A stretch of DNA of 34,202 nt from an uncultured Pelagibacteraceae bacterium. GTDB taxonomy: Bacteria > Pseudomonadota > Alphaproteobacteria > Pelagibacterales > Pelagibacteraceae. How positions within the stretch are numbered: the first letter of the stretch is position 1; every line of letters starts with the position of its first letter. Positions 2,418 through 32,286 of this stretch are shown piece after piece. Position numbers and translations under genes: made by a program. The notes beneath the pieces were generated by a model, which saw nothing but the letters and a program-made list of their open reading frames with translations, was not told the DNA's origin and did not search any database. The stretch is taken from positions 1 to 34,202 of the forward strand of contig CABXYU010000008.1 of assembly GCA_902516625.1 (NCBI GenBank), written 5' to 3'.

Positions 2418-3087
2418 TAATGGTTTTTATATTACCATTAACTAATTCCATCAAGCAATCTGCCTTATTAGCAAAATATCTATTGTGGGTTGCAAAAATT
2501 ATTATTCTATTAGAATTTATTTGTTTTTTAAGTAATCCAAAAATTCCTTTTGCTGTTTCTAAATCTAAACTTCCAGTAGGTTCATCTGCTAAAATAATCT
2601 GCGGATCATTAATTAATGCTCTAGCTATCGATATTCTTTGTTTTTCTCCTCCAGATAATTGAGATGGGTAATGTTCTGATCTATTTAAAAGTCCAACTTT
2701 TTTAAGTAGAATTTTTGCTTTAGATATTGATAAAGATTTATTATTCCCTGCTGCCAAACTTGCCAAATAGATATTTTCTAGTGCTGTAAAATCATGTAGC
2801 AAATTATCTTGTTGATAAATAATACCAATTTTATTTGCTCTCAAAATATCATTCTTATTTAAATCATTGAAGTTTATATTTTTATTTTCAATTTTTATTA
2901 GACCTGAGCTTGGTCGATCAATTAATGAGAGTAAATTTAGAAGAGTGGATTTTCCAGAACCTGAGGGGCCAATTAAAGAATAAATCTTCCCTTTTTTGAA
3001 TTTAAAAGAAATTTTCTTTAAAACTTTAATGTTATTCAATTCATTGAAAGATTTATTTAGATTTAAAATTTCTATTAAATTATTCAT
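2410..3087 (-). CDS. lolD: Lipoprotein-releasing ABC transporter ATP-binding subunit LolD
   Basis: ATPase that powers extraction of outer-membrane lipoproteins from the inner membrane towards LolA. The 225-residue protein has Walker A GPSGSGKST (40-48), a Q-loop near YQQ (91-93), signature LSGGE (144-148), Walker B IILADEP (164-170) and the switch histidine H201. These place it in the LolD/MacB/FtsE group of ABC ATPases. The adjacent LolC/E-type permease, overlapping by 8 nt at 3080-3087, identifies the Lol system rather than MacB or FtsE. The ATG at 3087 is the natural start. It ends 8 nt inside dnaE. Confidence 0.93.
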   Translation of the reverse strand: MNNLIEILNLNKSFNELNNIKVLKKISFKFKKGKIYSLIGPSGSGKSTLLNLLSLIDRPSSGLIKIENKNINFNDLNKNDILRANKIGIIYQQDNLLHDFTALENIYLASLAAGNNKSLSISKAKILLKKVGLLNRSEHYPSQLSGGEKQRISIARALINDPQIILADEPTGSLDLETAKGIFGLLKKQINSNRIIIFATHNRYFANKADCLMELVNGNIKTINV

Positions 3088-26714: not shown

Positions 26715-27983
26715 TTAAGCCGCTGATGTCTTGTCTTGCTTGGATTTACTGTCTGTTTTAGAGTGAACTATTATGGGCTGAGATTGCCCTTTTGCTGCTG
26801 ATGCATCAACAATAACCTCCTCTATATTATCCTGACTTGGTAAATCATACATTGTTTTAAGCAAAATATTTTCTAAAATTGATCTTAACCCTCTCGCTCC
26901 AGTTTTTTTTCTAATTGCTTTAAGAGCTATCTCTTTTAAAGCATTGTCTTTAAAGATTAGTTTTGCCCCATCAAGTTTAAATAATTCTTGATACTGTTTT
27001 ATTAAAGAGTTTTTTGGTTCCTGAAGTATTTTAATTAATGATTTCTCATCTAAATCTTCTAATGTTGCGATCATTGGTAATCGACCAATAAATTCTGGAA
27101 TTAAACCATATTTTAATAAATCCTCTGGCTCCAAACCTTTCATCCATTCCCCTGTTTTTTTGTCTTGAGTATTTTTTACATCTGCTCCAAAACCAATAGA
27201 AGTTCCTTTGTCTCTTTGAGAAATAATTTTATCTAAACCTGCAAAAGCTCCTCCACATATAAACAATATATTTGTTGTATCGACTTGCAAAAATTCTTGT
27301 TGCGGATGTTTTCTTCCACCTTGAGGAGGAACACTGGCAATAGTTCCCTCCATAATTTTTAATAATGCTTGTTGCACACCTTCGCCAGAAACATCTCTAG
27401 TAATTGAGGGATTTTCTGATTTTCTACTTATCTTATCTACTTCGTCGATATAAACGATACCTCGTTGCGCTTTTTCCACATTATAATCAGCAGCTTGTAA
27501 TAATTTTAGAATTATGTTTTCAACATCTTCTCCTACATAACCAGCTTCAGTAAGAGTTGTTGCATCAGCCATTGTAAATGGAACATCAAGTATTCTAGCT
27601 AAAGTTTGAGCTAACAAAGTTTTTCCACATCCGGTTGGGCCAACTAACAAAATATTTGATTTTGCTAACTCAACATTTTTACTAGTTTTATTTTCATAAT
27701 TTAATCTTTTATAGTGATTGTGAACCGCTACTGATAAAACCTTTTTGGCATGAGATTGACCAATTACATAATCGTCTAAAACTGAACAAATTTCTTTTGG
27801 TGAAGGAAGACCGTCCTGATGTTTTACAAAAGTATCTTTGCTTTCTTCTTTGATAATATCCATACATAATTCAACGCACTCATCACATATAAACACTGTA
27901 GGTCCAGCTATTAATTTTCTTACCTCGTGCTGGCTCTTTCCACAAAAAGAGCAGTAAAGAATATTTTTATTATTTGTATTCAT
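26715..27983 (-). CDS. clpX: ATP-dependent Clp protease ATP-binding subunit ClpX
   Basis: AAA+ unfoldase that feeds proteins to ClpP, 422 residues. It has the N-terminal zinc finger C11, C14, C33, C36; Walker A GPTGCGKT (115-122); the pore loop GYVG (148-151); Walker [10 protein letters not shown] (176-184); and an IGF loop (SIGFGAD) for docking on ClpP. It is complete, 89 nt downstream of clpP. Confidence 0.98.
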
Positions 27984-28072: not shown

Positions 28073-28684
28073 CTATGTTCTTTTCTCTACAACTTGATCT
28101 ATTAACCCAAATGATTTAGCAGACTCAGCGGTCATAAAATTATCTCTTTCTAATGCAGATTTAATCTCTTCAACTGATTTACCTGTATGTTTTGAGTAAA
28201 TTTCATTAAGTCTTTTTTTAAGAGACAACACCTCATTAGCATGTATTTCTATATCAGTTGCCTGTCCCTGAAATCCAGCAGAAGGTTGATGAACCATTAT
28301 TCGAGAATTAGGTAATGAAAATCTTTTACCTTTTGTGCCAGCTGCTAATAAAAAAGATCCCATTGAGGCTGCTTGCCCAATACACAAAGTTGAGATCTCA
28401 GGTTTGATATATTGTATGGTATCGTAAATTCCCAATCCTGCTGTCACTAAACCTCCTGGACTGTTGATGTATAAATAAATTTCTTTTTTCGGATCCTCAG
28501 CTTCAAGAAATAAAAGTTGAGCAGTTACTAATGAAGCTACGTTGTCATTTATCTGACCAGTCAAAAAAATTATTCTTTCTTTCAACAGCCTTGAGTAAAT
28601 ATCATAAGCTCTCTCTCCCTTGCTTGATTGTTCGACAACCATAGGCACTAAATTACTCATGTGTTCAAAAATTTTATTTGTCAT
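28073..28684 (-). CDS. clpP: ATP-dependent Clp protease proteolytic subunit ClpP
   Basis: Barrel-forming serine peptidase, 203 residues from the ATG at 28684. The catalytic triad is S107 (GQAASMGS), H132 (IMVHQPSAG) and D181 (LERDNFMT), with the same spacings as the E. coli enzyme. A second ATG at 28660 (residue 9, [11 protein letters not shown]) would give the shorter N-terminus common among relatives; no Shine-Dalgarno sequence separates the two choices. It lies between tig (32-nt gap) and clpX, the usual proteobacterial order. Confidence 0.97.
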
Positions 28685-28716
28685 AAGTTGATTCGCTTTA
28701 CTTATACAACTTGAGA

Positions 28717-30150
28717 TTACTTTTTGCTAACTTTTTTTGACTTTTTAACTACAGATTTAGCTTTTGTCGATTTTGGCTTTGTTTTGTTCTCAGAAGATTT
28801 TTTTACTTCAACCTTTTTTTCAGGTTTTCTTTGATCTTTAAGTTCTTGATCAAGCTGTTGTTTTTGAGATTGTTTTAAAATTTTTTCAGCTTCCTCTTTT
28901 GAAATTTCTTTTTTATTAGATTTAGATTTTTCCTTTATCAAATTTATTATTTTTTCCTCATAAACAGTGCCTCTTAAGCTTGCTACTGCTGATGGATTTT
29001 TCTGATAAAAATCCATAACCATTTTTTCTTGACCAGGCATCATTCTTATTTGTTTTTGTACTTCTGCTTGTAATTCTTGCTCAGTTACTTTTATTTTATT
29101 TTGTTCTCCAAACTCATTTAAGATCAAACCAACTTTTATTCTTTTATTTGCTATTTCTTCAAAATTTTTTCTACTTTTTTTAGCATCCTCTTCTGACATG
29201 CCTTGAGATAGAATCTTTACTTCTTCTTCAATAAGGTTTTCAGGTATTTCACTTACCTTAAATTTCTCAAGTTCCTTTATTATTTGGTTTTTTGTCAGTC
29301 TATCCAAAGAATTCTTATATTCATCGTTAATTTGTTTAGATATTAATGATTTAAGATCGCTTAAATCTTTAGCTCCCAAATTTTTTGCAAATTCATCATT
29401 TATTTTTGTTTCCTCTGGATTTTTTATACTTGTAATTTGACATTTAAATTTTGCAATTTTATTTACTAATTCCTTTTCTGGAAAATTCTCTGGTAATTTT
29501 GCTTCAACTACTTTTTCATCACCCTTCTTAACTCCAATTAATTGTTTATCAAAACCTTTCAAAAATAAATCTTTTCCTAAAGTGAGTTGAGTATTTTTTC
29601 CCTCACCCCCTTTAAAAACTTTATCGTCTACAGTTGCAGTGTAATCAAAAACTACTAAATCTTTATCTGCTGCTTTAGCTTGATCAGATGCTTCTTTGAA
29701 ATTTGGTTGATTCTTTGCAATTTCTTGAATTCTTTTATCTGCTTCTTTTGGATCAATTTTTACTGTATAATCATCATACTTTATACTCTCAACAGATTTT
29801 ACTTCAATTTTTGGAAGTTCAGTTACTGAGATTACATATTCAAGTTCTTTATCTTCTCCATAAGTTTTTAAATCAAGTTTTGGCTGACCGGCTGGTTTAA
29901 TCTTGTTTTCCGATAAAGCTTTTGTTGAGGTATCTTTTAAAACTTTATCAAGTACTTCACTAAAAACAGCCTTGCCAAATTGTCTTTTTAAAATTTCTCT
30001 TGGAACTTTTCCTGGTCTAAAACCTTTTAAATTTACTGTTCCTTTAATTTCCTCATACTTTTCATCCATGTATGAGTTCATTGTCTTTTTATCGACAAAA
30101 ACTTTTACATCTTTATTTAGACCTTTTTTATTTTCTACAGTTACTTTCAT
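28717..30150 (-). CDS. tig: Trigger factor
   Basis: Ribosome-bound chaperone with peptidyl-prolyl isomerase activity, 477 residues. The ribosome-binding loop GFRPGKVP (43-50) matches the GFRxGKxP signature. An FKBP-type domain occupies about 150-245 (starting near [14 protein letters not shown]), and the helical C-terminal cradle follows. The final 60 or so residues (about 415-477) form a lysine-rich tail ([21 protein letters not shown] and onward), longer than in E. coli TF (432 residues). The ATG lies only 10 nt after tRNA-Leu, so tig is probably transcribed together with it. Confidence 0.97.
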
Positions 30151-30160
30151 AAGTTGTATG

Positions 30161-30245
30161 TGGTAGGGCGAAAAGGACTCGAACCTTCACAGATTGCTCT
30201 ATCGGTTCCTAAGACCGACGCGTCTACCAATTCCGCCATCGCCCC
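30161..30245 (-). tRNA. tRNA-Leu (anticodon TAG)
   Basis: 85-nt class II tRNA with encoded CCA. Acceptor GGGGCGA pairs with TCGCCCT (one G-T at the end). The D-region is TGGCGGAATTGGTAGACGC, the anticodon stem-loop CGGTCTTAGGAACCG contains TAG, there is a long variable arm, and the T-arm is AGGTTCGAGTCCT. The 3' end is 10 nt before the tig start codon. Confidence 0.97.
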
Positions 30246-30259
30246 ACGAATTTAGAAGT

Positions 30260-30287
30260 TTTATATATGATTGAAACAATTTGTCCA
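30260..30287 (-). promoter_or_regulatory. Promoter of tRNA-Leu (and probably tig)
   Basis: On the minus strand TGGACA (30282-30287) and TATAAA (30260-30265) are separated by 16 nt and each match the consensus at five of six positions. The expected start near 30252 leaves about 7 nt before tRNA-Leu. Because only 10 nt separate tRNA-Leu from tig, this is the likely promoter for tig as well. Confidence 0.6.
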
Positions 30288-30328
30288 ATAAATTAAAAAA
30301 TGTTATTTTCTGTAAAAAAAATTAAAAG

Positions 30329-30502
30329 ATGAGTAATAGTTCTAAAGTAATAATTGTTTACATAATTGGCTTGATATTTGGAGCTTTATTTTTAGATATT
30401 TGGGATGCTGAGACAAGTATATTTAAAGCACTATTAGGACTCGGGTGGACTGCATTACTTTTAATCGGTTTATTTTTTGCTGAGAAAAATGAAAATAACT
30501 AA
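30329..30502 (+). CDS. 57-residue two-helix membrane protein
   Basis: ATG at 30329, TAA at 30500-30502. Two hydrophobic helices (about 7-23 and 33-51) are joined by a short acidic link, DIWDAETS, and a charged tail AEKNENN follows. The last 14 nt overlap the start of the next gene, an operon-like arrangement that supports a real gene. It is divergent from tRNA-Leu with 83 nt between. I do not recognise the family; the two-helix hairpin recalls small inner-membrane proteins. Confidence 0.6.
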   Translation: MSNSSKVIIVYIIGLIFGALFLDIWDAETSIFKALLGLGWTALLLIGLFFAEKNENN

Positions 30503-30917
30503 AATTTTAATTTTTTTTCTTTCGATATTTTTTATTTTACCAATTCATAATCTTAGATCAGAAATAATAATAATGAGCGCATGTGATGATAAACAAGATG
30601 AATTCTTAAAAAACGAATATGTTTTAAATCTTGATGAACTAATCATGACAAGAAATTATGTGTATAAAGAAAAAACTTACCAAAAATACAGAATTACTGA
30701 TCTAAGTGTTAAAAAATCTAATACTTACGTGAGGAATATTTATAAAGAGGGCGGAAAAATTTTAACGCATAAACACGGATATCCACAATTTTATACTCAA
30801 ATTCTATTCGAGATTGGAAAACCTGAGGTATTTATGAAAACTGTTTTAAATGATGAGGAGGGTATTACTAAAATTTCAAATTGTAAGAAAATTGAAAGAT
30901 TTGAGAAAGAAAGTTAA
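30489..30917 (+). CDS. Exported protein of unknown function
   Basis: 142 residues from the ATG at 30489; the frame extends four codons further to a TTG, but the ATG gives a clean signal peptide (MKITKILIFFLSIFFILPIHN). After the signal comes SEIIIMSACDDKQDEFLKNEY, then a lysine/tyrosine-rich region with KEGGKILTHKHGYPQFYTQ. The mature protein has only two cysteines, one in SACDD and one in ISNCKK, so a disulfide in the periplasm is possible. It overlaps the 57-residue gene by 14 nt, so the two are likely co-expressed. I recognise no family. Confidence 0.75.
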   Translation: MKITKILIFFLSIFFILPIHNLRSEIIIMSACDDKQDEFLKNEYVLNLDELIMTRNYVYKEKTYQKYRITDLSVKKSNTYVRNIYKEGGKILTHKHGYPQFYTQILFEIGKPEVFMKTVLNDEEGITKISNCKKIERFEKES

Positions 30918-31039
30918 ATCTTTTTCTTAATCTTTGAAGAGTTCTTTCTTTTATAAGAAAATCTACTGTTTGTAATATTGCTTCTATGTTTTGCATAAGC
31001 TTGCTTTTGCGCTTGTTTCATGGCTCGTTTTGAAGACAT
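30914..31039 (-). CDS. 41-residue highly basic small protein
   Basis: ATG at 31039, TAA at 30914-30916. The sequence has 10 lysines and 4 arginines among 41 residues and no aspartate or glutamate, and begins MSSKRAMKQAQKQAYAKHRS. It starts 5 nt after the stop of the histidine phosphatase on the same strand and its stop overlaps the convergent exported-protein gene by 4 nt. The charge pattern suggests binding to nucleic acid or the ribosome, but this is inference; it could also be a chance frame. Its use of GCG, GCC and GCA codons is less A/T-driven than random intergenic sequence here. Confidence 0.5.
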   Translation of the reverse strand: MSSKRAMKQAQKQAYAKHRSNITNSRFSYKRKNSSKIKKKI

Positions 31040-31044
31040 ATAAT

Positions 31045-31602
31045 TTAATAATTTATTTCTATACTTCCTATTATATTGAAATTTTTGTCAGAAACAACTA
31101 TTTCACCAGATGATGGGCCGTAATTCAAAACCTCAGATATTAACACATAATGAGTTACTAAAATTAGATTTTTCTTACCTTTAAAATTTTTAATATATTT
31201 TTTTAGTGCCTGAATTTGTTTATCTTTATTTTTTGCATATTCTAAACTGTAAAAAGAATTCAAGAAACTATTTGTAGAATAGTCATTGAATGCTATCTTC
31301 GCTGTTTCTTGGCACCTGCACCATTCGCTAGATAAAACTTTATCTGTCTTAATCTTATTTCTTTTAAAAAAAGCACCGATATATTGAGCTTGTTTTTTAC
31401 CATCTACACTTAAATTTCTTTGGGTTGAACAATCGTTTAAATTGAAATTATCTGGATCTCCGTTGCCAGGCGCATACGCATGTCTTATAAATATTAATTT
31501 TTCACCATCTTCAAGTTGATTTATTAAATTTTTATTTGAATCTGCTTTAATAGATGTGGTTAAAGATATAAATATAATTATTAAAAATTTTACAAATTTC
31601 AT
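31045..31602 (-). CDS. Exported histidine phosphatase superfamily protein
   Basis: 185 residues with an N-terminal signal peptide (MKFVKFLIIIFISLTTSIKA). The phosphatase core has the RHA motif with nucleophile H41, followed by the APGNGDPDNFNLNDCSTQRNL stretch (positions 44-64) typical of a periplasmic branch, SSEWCRCQET with R96, and the second catalytic histidine H151 in LVTHYVLI, then SGEIVV. It probably removes phosphate from a small periplasmic substrate, which cannot be named. It is divergent from the uracil-DNA glycosylase gene with only 3 nt between the two ATGs. Confidence 0.85.
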   Translation of the reverse strand: MKFVKFLIIIFISLTTSIKADSNKNLINQLEDGEKLIFIRHAYAPGNGDPDNFNLNDCSTQRNLSVDGKKQAQYIGAFFKRNKIKTDKVLSSEWCRCQETAKIAFNDYSTNSFLNSFYSLEYAKNKDKQIQALKKYIKNFKGKKNLILVTHYVLISEVLNYGPSSGEIVVSDKNFNIIGSIEINY

Positions 31603-31605
31603 TTT

Positions 31606-32286
31606 ATGGATATTAGATTAATCAATTTAAATAAAACAATAGTAAATTGTAAGAAATGTCCAAGATTGATTAAATTTGTTAACAAAGTAAGTACTATAAA
31701 AAGAAAACAAAATATTAATGAAGTTTATTGGGGTAAGCCAGTTCCTGGATTTGGAAATCTAAACTCAAAACTAGCTATCATTGGTCTGGCTCCTGCCGCT
31801 CATGGAGGTACAAGAACAGGAAGGGCTTTTACCGGTGATAAATCTGGAGATTTTTTATTTAAATGTTTATATGAAGTAGGAATTTCTAATTCTCCATTTT
31901 CAAGAAATTTAAATGATAATTTAAAATTAAAATCCACTTATATTACAAATATTCTTAAATGTGTCCCTCCTGAAGACAAACCCTTAAGTAATGAAATTTC
32001 AAATTGCTCTAATTTTTTTGATGAAGAAATATTATCCTTAAAAAAACTAAAAGTTATAGTTACATTAGGAAAAGTAGCTTTTGATAATTGTATCAAATTA
32101 TATAAACAAAAATTTGATATGAAACAAAAATTTATTTTTAAGCATGGGAAAACTCAGTTATTGCCCAATGGTTTAATAATACTTTCAAGTTATCACCCTA
32201 GCCCCAGAAATGTAAATACAAAAGTAATTTCGGATAAAATGATGATTGACTTATTTAAAAAAGCAAAAAAACTTGCTAAGTTTTAA
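31606..32286 (+). CDS. Uracil-DNA glycosylase, iron-sulfur family 5 (UdgB) type
   Basis: Base-excision repair enzyme that removes uracil (and often hypoxanthine) from DNA, 226 residues. The 4Fe-4S ligands fit C15, C18, C119 and C134. Motif A reads GLAPAAHGGTRTGR (60-73) and continues to FTGDKSGDF; this alanine-rich form is typical of family 5 (UDGb) and lacks the acidic residue of family 4. Motif B is SYHPSPRN (195-202). No family 1 Ung is visible in the window. The gene's 3' end overlaps the convergent thioesterase gene by 11 nt. Confidence 0.9.
   Translation: MDIRLINLNKTIVNCKKCPRLIKFVNKVSTIKRKQNINEVYWGKPVPGFGNLNSKLAIIGLAPAAHGGTRTGRAFTGDKSGDFLFKCLYEVGISNSPFSRNLNDNLKLKSTYITNILKCVPPEDKPLSNEISNCSNFFDEEILSLKKLKVIVTLGKVAFDNCIKLYKQKFDMKQKFIFKHGKTQLLPNGLIILSSYHPSPRNVNTKVISDKMMIDLFKKAKKLAKF

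Follow-up and report, generated by a model that had tools for sequence, protein, structure and literature searches.

The locus considered here raises the question of how a protein-coding message can begin when the tRNA gene ahead of it leaves next to no room in between. In the window, by which we mean the whole 34,202-nt stretch analysed (contig CABXYU010000008.1 of an uncultured Pelagibacteraceae bacterium, GenBank assembly GCA_902516625.1), the minus strand carries, in this order, a putative promoter, tRNA-Leu(UAG), CATACAACTT, tig, clpP, and clpX, with the individual features being as follows.

30283..30288, minus strand: putative -35 element TTGGAC of the tRNA-Leu/tig unit (conserved columns)
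30260..30265, minus strand: putative -10 element TATAAA, 17 nt from the -35 element
30161..30245, minus strand: tRNA-Leu(UAG) with encoded CCA (ARAGORN, as tRNA-Leu(tag), and sequence)
30151..30160, minus strand: 10-nt spacer, the presumed tig leader and predicted endonuclease cleavage site (sequence)
28717..30150, minus strand: tig, trigger factor, 477 aa (ORF; Trigger_N, FKBP_C, and Trigger_C)
28685..28716, minus strand: tig-clpP spacer, 32 nt, with the inverted repeat AAGTTG...CAACTT (window copy and relatives)
28073..28684, minus strand: clpP, the next gene of the presumed operon (ORF)
26715..27983, minus strand: clpX, the gene after clpP (ORF)

Here, the tig ATG is located at 30150, and the spacer CATACAACTT (30160-30151) makes up the entire gap, directly following the encoded CCA. 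This ATG is very probably the correct tig start, since the Trigger_N match begins at residue 1. As for clpP and clpX, these are named from their sequences. The answer that we argue for is that tRNA-Leu(UAG) and tig make up one unit, that an RNase E-type cut separates the two, and that a near-leaderless tig mRNA would result, an account which, taken whole, we consider reasonably likely.

To place the junction within SAR11, we used the best 80 of 546 tig matches, whose titles name Pelagibacteraceae, Pelagibacterales, or Pelagibacter; as the best-scoring of the 546, these 80 loci are therefore close relatives and not independent of one another. Among these best 80, there are 75 in which tRNA-Leu(tag) lies on the same strand and 8-14 nt ahead of tig, with the gap being exactly 10 nt in 48 of the 75. 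The distance of 10 nt between the tRNA-Leu CCA and the tig ATG, as given in the initial annotation, is thus borne out both in the window (30151-30160) and by the narrow range in its relatives. To judge from these sequences, the tRNA-Leu/tig junction is more than chance and no local oddity, and because the gap is only 8-14 nt, a promoter or terminator hardly fits into it. Among the open-licence PMC papers listed in searches, none describes a tRNA-Leu/tig transcript in its title or the beginning of its abstract.

The exceptions among the best 80 loci are the prophage-like L018 and L079, and three loci with longer gaps (L004, L028, and L049). In the latter, a divergent tRNA-Leu(tag) is found 113, 115, and 73 nt, respectively, from the tig ATG, and palindromic tRNA-like remnants occupy the stretch between the two (at about 2885-3000 of these loci). 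L018 and L079 each have a whole tRNA-Leu, oriented like tig and 160-167 nt ahead of it, after which come the 3' portion of the host tRNA, a spacer of the usual kind, and tig itself. This upstream structure looks like a prophage end, and at about 2650-3000 of both loci probable prophage ends lie in the tRNA-Leu(UAG) gene. Moreover, a search with L079 (not L018) gave a 119-nt match to the integrase of pelagiphage HTVC025P (77%), and the upstream tRNA in L079 has an 85% match to the stretch just after the HTVC011P integrase. Prophage insertion at tRNA-Leu(TAG) beside tig is already on record, as passages of Chen et al. (2019; PMC6811365) describe phages in tRNA-Leu(TAG), trigger factor adjoining a prophage, and phage-borne tRNA-Leu. 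For the present question, judging by L018 and L079, tig may be able to persist when severed from the host tRNA promoter.

Upstream of the tRNA, we searched 81 regions (the 80 loci and the window) for a 32-nt block, using a consensus written from inspection and accepting up to 8 mismatches. This promoter-like block was found in 79 of the 81, with the misses being L018 and L079. Throughout the 79 block-bearing loci, the columns of the -35 element (TTGGAC) are 99-100% identical and those of the -10 element (TATAAA) 96-100%. Over 36 columns, running from TGTC via TTGGACAAATA to TATATAAAAC, 26 columns are at least 95% identical, and in the six columns directly past the block identity drops to 53-77%. 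From the block start to the tig ATG, 76 loci measure 137-145 nt; the three with long gaps measure 207, 245, and 249 nt, and all three keep the conserved block ahead of their tRNA. In G114, the sole genome scanned (one contig), the 36-nt consensus matched this locus with 2 mismatches, and the runner-up had 9. The block ahead of the tRNA is a putative promoter and the sole conserved transcription signal seen, from which a transcription start would be expected near 30253. A TGTC-N4-GACA dyad straddles the -35 element in 71 of the 79 loci; its left TGTC arm is missing in the window (30260-30293), and we therefore claim no regulator for this would-be operator. Taken together with the short gap, co-transcription of tRNA-Leu and tig from the tRNA promoter appears highly probable.

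A rather different reading is that tig has its own primary start within the tRNA gene or the spacer, in which case the tRNA would be a mere neighbour. We find this quite improbable. When 29500-32000 was scanned mechanically for sigma-70 sites, none was listed on the minus strand within the tRNA or leader, and the promoter of the tRNA was missed as well; with 15 sites against 13.1 in shuffles (sd 3.4), that is, no more than in shuffles, the scan is powerless here. To the initial annotation, the one good promoter was that ahead of the tRNA, a placement upheld by the conserved block and not by the scan, which fails to recover even this block. Indeed, sigma-70 rules may not be those of SAR11, and in leaders with 91% A+T an ill-defined -10 box could occur. 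Set against this, a start in the spacer should put the -10 box in the G+C-rich acceptor stem, and at positions -10 to -6 the spacer is no more alike among relatives than chance would have it. Specifically, identity there is 0.38-0.43 among 34 distinct 10-nt leaders, versus 0.41 expected from composition, and therefore no conserved -10 box is present there and the sequence is free to vary.

The leader could be measured in 78 of the 81 loci (80 relatives and the window), with lengths of 10 nt (50 loci), 9 nt (12), 13 nt (9), 11 nt (3), 12 nt (2), 8 nt (1), and 14 nt (1). At first sight, a length held so nearly fixed at 10 nt might pass for proof of selection. This argument is weakened by the neighbouring spacers, as tig and clpP are 32-35 nt apart in 81 of 81 loci and clpP and clpX 87-91 nt apart in 79 of 80; being about equally constant, these spacers make clear that constant length alone proves nothing. 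In its sequence, the tig-clpP spacer is unlike the one between tRNA and tig, with an identity of 0.87 (24 distinct versions of 59 32-nt copies). Its inverted repeat AAGTTG...CAACTT is present in the window copy also.

More conspicuously, T is found at -1 in 77 of the 78 tig leaders, which, the loci being related, are not independent events, in comparison with 210 of 462 G114 genes having 15 free nt upstream. At -2, T is found in 67 of the 78. A U at -1 may pair with A37 of the initiator tRNA. Neither AGG nor GGA occurs in any of the 78 leaders read, including that of the window, and so the statement that the leader has no Shine-Dalgarno sequence holds, though this is ordinary for SAR11. In fact, we rejected the missing motif as something special, since it is rare both in G114 (142 of 973 called genes versus 58 in a control window) and at tig across the class sample described below (19 of 104 loci with enough leader). 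The predicted fold of the window precursor has no clean cloverleaf at minimum energy (z -1.43), and the leader is predicted to pair weakly, and in part, with the tig start.

How far back the arrangement reaches was judged from a class sample of 114 genomes, 109 of which have tig, and from which 108 loci besides the window were examined. In 98 of the 108, tRNA-Leu(UAG) is directly upstream of tig on the same strand, at a gap of 7-384 nt (median 66), although single gaps may be off, given that the tig starts were set by alignment and a nearest-start rule (one locus, L186, is without a standard start codon). No tRNA-Leu(UAG) was seen ahead of tig within the stretch read in the other 10. The gap is 24 nt or less in 9 of the 17 genomes not exceeding 1.4 Mb, versus 2 of 81 larger ones, and gap and genome size have a weak rank correlation (rho 0.28, p 0.006). 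For the phylum, we took the best 30 loci of 59 genomes with a match, 29 of these being new and 24 from outside the class. Among these 24 of the best 30, tRNA-Leu(tag) is upstream on the tig strand in 10, and in 8 of the 10 it comes after at least one tRNA for Pro, Arg, His, or Lys. The remaining outside-class loci comprise 3 with only other tRNAs of the Pro/Arg/His/Lys group, 1 with a cluster on the opposite strand, and 10 with none. As seen in the phylum loci (L190-L218), Pro-Arg-His-(Lys)-Leu tRNA clusters often precede tig outside the class. From this distribution over class and phylum, the tRNA-Leu/tig gene order is old, and its tight gap probably arose through genome reduction.

Such a history could be all that there is to it, with an ancient tRNA-tig order simply squeezed by genome reduction and devoid of regulatory meaning. 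We give this an even chance, and it is compatible with processing of the transcript. It agrees with the order being common to 98 of the 108 class loci, with short gaps being concentrated in small genomes (9 of 17 versus 2 of 81), and with the general compaction of G114. What it leaves unexplained is the T at -1 in 77 of 78 leaders, along with the 3-4 nt gap between tRNA-Gln and the gene for the CCA-adding enzyme, which we found in 30 of 30 loci.

In G114, one contig (953 kb of a 1.2-Mb genome) holds 23 tRNAs and a tmRNA. A same-strand CDS comes next after 12 of the tRNAs, and in seven of these junctions the gap is at most 17 nt: Gln (3 nt), Leu(UAG) (10), Pro (7), Glu (17), Leu(UAA) (2), Met (5), and Trp (14); the other five gaps are 32-178 nt. 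The CDS 14 nt past tRNA-Trp was read by hand and is presumably secE. Between same-strand CDSs in G114, the median gap is 3 nt, and 69% of 727 are at most 20 nt. Accordingly tight tRNA-CDS gaps fit the compaction, or streamlining, of SAR11, which weakens the case for a special role.

With the CCA-adding enzyme, a match was obtained in 52 of 61 genomes, and 30 loci were fetched, all from the genus of the window. Between the CCA of tRNA-Gln(UUG) and the start of the gene there are 3 nt in 27 of the 30 and 4 nt in the other 3. All 30 have T at -1 and no stop among the first 20 codons; the L315 copy has stops further along. Its identity is indicated by PolyA_pol and tRNA_NucTran2_2 domains in L297, and the gene was not found in the incomplete genome of the window itself. 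Likewise, in 18 of the 23 genus loci fetched, tRNA-Leu(UAA) is followed at 3-7 nt by an in-frame start of nadK (identified by NAD_kinase_C in L267), one of these starts being GTG. In L279, tRNA-Leu(UAA) is directly ahead of nadK, with no in-frame start there and a stop within the gene, and the junction is missed in L269 (the window's own genome), L271, L274, and L277. In L271, a different ORF starts 4 nt after tRNA-Leu(UAA). In the sister family, nadK is tight after tRNA-Leu(UAA) in 0 of 7.

These close junctions bear on whether any cut is needed. If tig were co-transcribed with the tRNA and translated off the uncut precursor, processing of the tRNA would be unnecessary, and co-transcription by itself calls for no cut before translation; moreover, tig tolerates gaps of 113, 115, and 73 nt in L004, L028, and L049. 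We nonetheless consider this unlikely, as a folded tRNA so close to the AUG (10 nt for tig, 3-4 nt for the CCA-adding enzyme) should, going by ribosome footprints, clash with the initiating ribosome. A message starting 3 nt after a tRNA would hardly be readable before a cut, and therefore processing is the likely route for genes that abut a tRNA so closely. That the 5' end of tig itself is a processed one seems likely too, slightly more so than our account as a whole.

Which enzyme would make this end? An exonuclease, as one of the two possibilities offered by the initial annotation, fails in its logic: attacking in the 3'-5' direction, it has no means of generating a 5' end on the mRNA that lies downstream, and hence an endonuclease is needed to free tig. 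We surveyed the enzymes in 61 genomes (37 of the genus, the window's included, and 24 of a sister family) using profile models with cut-offs. RNase Z, the other suggestion, was above the model cut-off in 0 of 61, with weak partial matches in 49; in control genomes, the same model gave any match in 14 of 14 and one above cut-off in 9 of 14. Many of the weak matches in the sister family fall in a frame of ~357 aa, some spanning both ends of the profile, and those of the genus are in ~258-aa frames and cover only its first half. Since 5 of the 14 controls are also below cut-off, the relatives may have a divergent or unusual RNase Z homologue. An encoded CCA normally blocks RNase Z. On account of this encoded CCA and the 0 of 61, read with the 5 controls that miss as well, RNase Z was rejected as the first choice. 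RNase PH exceeded its cut-off in 23 of the 24 genomes from the sister family, as against 0 of the 37 from the genus, where the weak matches are mostly to ~690-aa frames that we take to be probably PNPase. For RNase D, any match was seen in 57 of 61 and one above cut-off in 0 of 61.

The RNase E/G domain, by comparison, is found in 52 of the 61 relatives, including 18 of 18 that are at least 90% complete; in the genome of the window, which is 65% complete, no RNase E was found. As the endonuclease clearly present, RNase E would be the best candidate, which we put at about even confidence. In excerpts of published work, E. coli RNase E is reported to cleave a tRNA precursor at 2 nt past metU (PMC4191395), and P. 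acnes, said to be without an obvious tRNase Z, to have endonuclease-made 5' ends a few nt past CCA-encoding tRNAs, with the authors regarding RNase E as unlikely for other cuts inside the CCA (PMC3848588). Similarly, a passage on Caulobacter gives 375 leaderless mRNAs that are translated as well as others (PMC4117421), and part of a review states that translation of leaderless mRNA needs a 5'-phosphorylated AUG, which an RNase E cut at or near the AUG would supply (PMC4611024).

The comparison shows the gene order, spacing, promoter conservation, leader drift, and enzyme inventory. On this footing, we infer for tig a sequence of steps, from co-transcription and the cut to the enzyme and the translation mode. 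The tRNA-Leu(UAG) and tig would be read as a single transcription unit from the promoter at about 30260-30288, and RNase P would process the tRNA on its 5' side. The AU-rich spacer would then be cleaved within a few nt of the CCA by an endonuclease, most likely RNase E, thereby freeing the pre-tRNA for 3' trimming. The remaining tig mRNA would carry a 5' monophosphate and no more than some 10 nt of leader, with U at -1. Finally, this near-leaderless mRNA would be translated with no Shine-Dalgarno sequence ahead of its AUG.

More tentatively, SAR11 could be using tRNA punctuation regularly, for tig, the CCA-adding enzyme, nadK, secE, and others, whose mRNAs would get their 5' ends from tRNA 3' processing and, as near-leaderless 5'-monophosphate messages, would be supplied in step with tRNA transcription and maturation; we hold this broader possibility to be somewhat doubtful. 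With its gene 3-4 nt after tRNA-Gln, the CCA-adding enzyme could be in a feedback loop on the repair of tRNA 3' ends. If tRNA-Leu and tig are co-transcribed, the tie that the initial annotation draws between tRNA transcription and the supply of chaperone would follow, though it may reflect mere genome compaction. If true, very abundant ocean bacteria would make some proteins, a ribosome-bound chaperone among them, from tRNA precursors, chaperone supply would be tied to tRNA output without a dedicated regulator, and blocking tRNA 3' processing would silence specific proteins. It would also be a parallel in free-living bacteria to mitochondrial tRNA punctuation, and prophage insertion at a known attachment site (tRNA-Leu) would rewire a host chaperone gene.

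Animal mitochondria, with their tRNA punctuation, rely on RNase Z (ELAC2) for the cut and add the CCA later. The likeness lies in an mRNA that abuts a tRNA, has little or no leader, and is thought to get its 5' end from tRNA 3' processing. Unlike in mitochondria, the CCA at the tig locus is encoded, RNase Z is not above cut-off (0 of 61, with 49 weak matches and controls at 9 of 14), and only some SAR11 genes are so arranged, so that a mitochondrial type of RNase Z cut with later CCA addition is not what we find. Mixed tRNA-mRNA operons of bacteria, such as E. coli thrU-tyrU-glyT-thrT-tufB and tRNA-Trp-secE, have longer leaders with ribosome sites. As in these, a tRNA stands upstream of a translation-related protein gene on the same strand, and the 10 nt between the two here (8-14 nt in 75 of 80 relatives) would not accommodate a terminator. 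A single promoter for both may be provided by the promoter-like block seen in 79 of 81 loci. The difference is a SAR11 tig leader of 8-14 nt without a ribosome site.

In processing, the locus would resemble the E. coli argX-hisR-leuT-proM and metT operons, for which excerpts of PMC4191395 describe RNase E processing, in that the predicted cut is a few nt after the tRNA. The enzyme is present in 52 of 61 relatives (with no match in the window's incomplete genome). Past the CCA, the 78 leaders are 91% A+T, but part of the window's leader is paired in the predicted fold. Here, the downstream product would be a functional mRNA and, unlike in those E. coli precursors, not a tRNA or discarded trailer. 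A cut right after the CCA would leave tig a leader of 10 nt. As with the leaderless mRNAs described in passages on Caulobacter (PMC4117421) and Sinorhizobium (PMC3616915), the AUG would then be at or near the predicted 5' end with no Shine-Dalgarno sequence, though in these accounts such mRNAs mainly begin at the transcription start, whereas the tig end would be a processed monophosphate.
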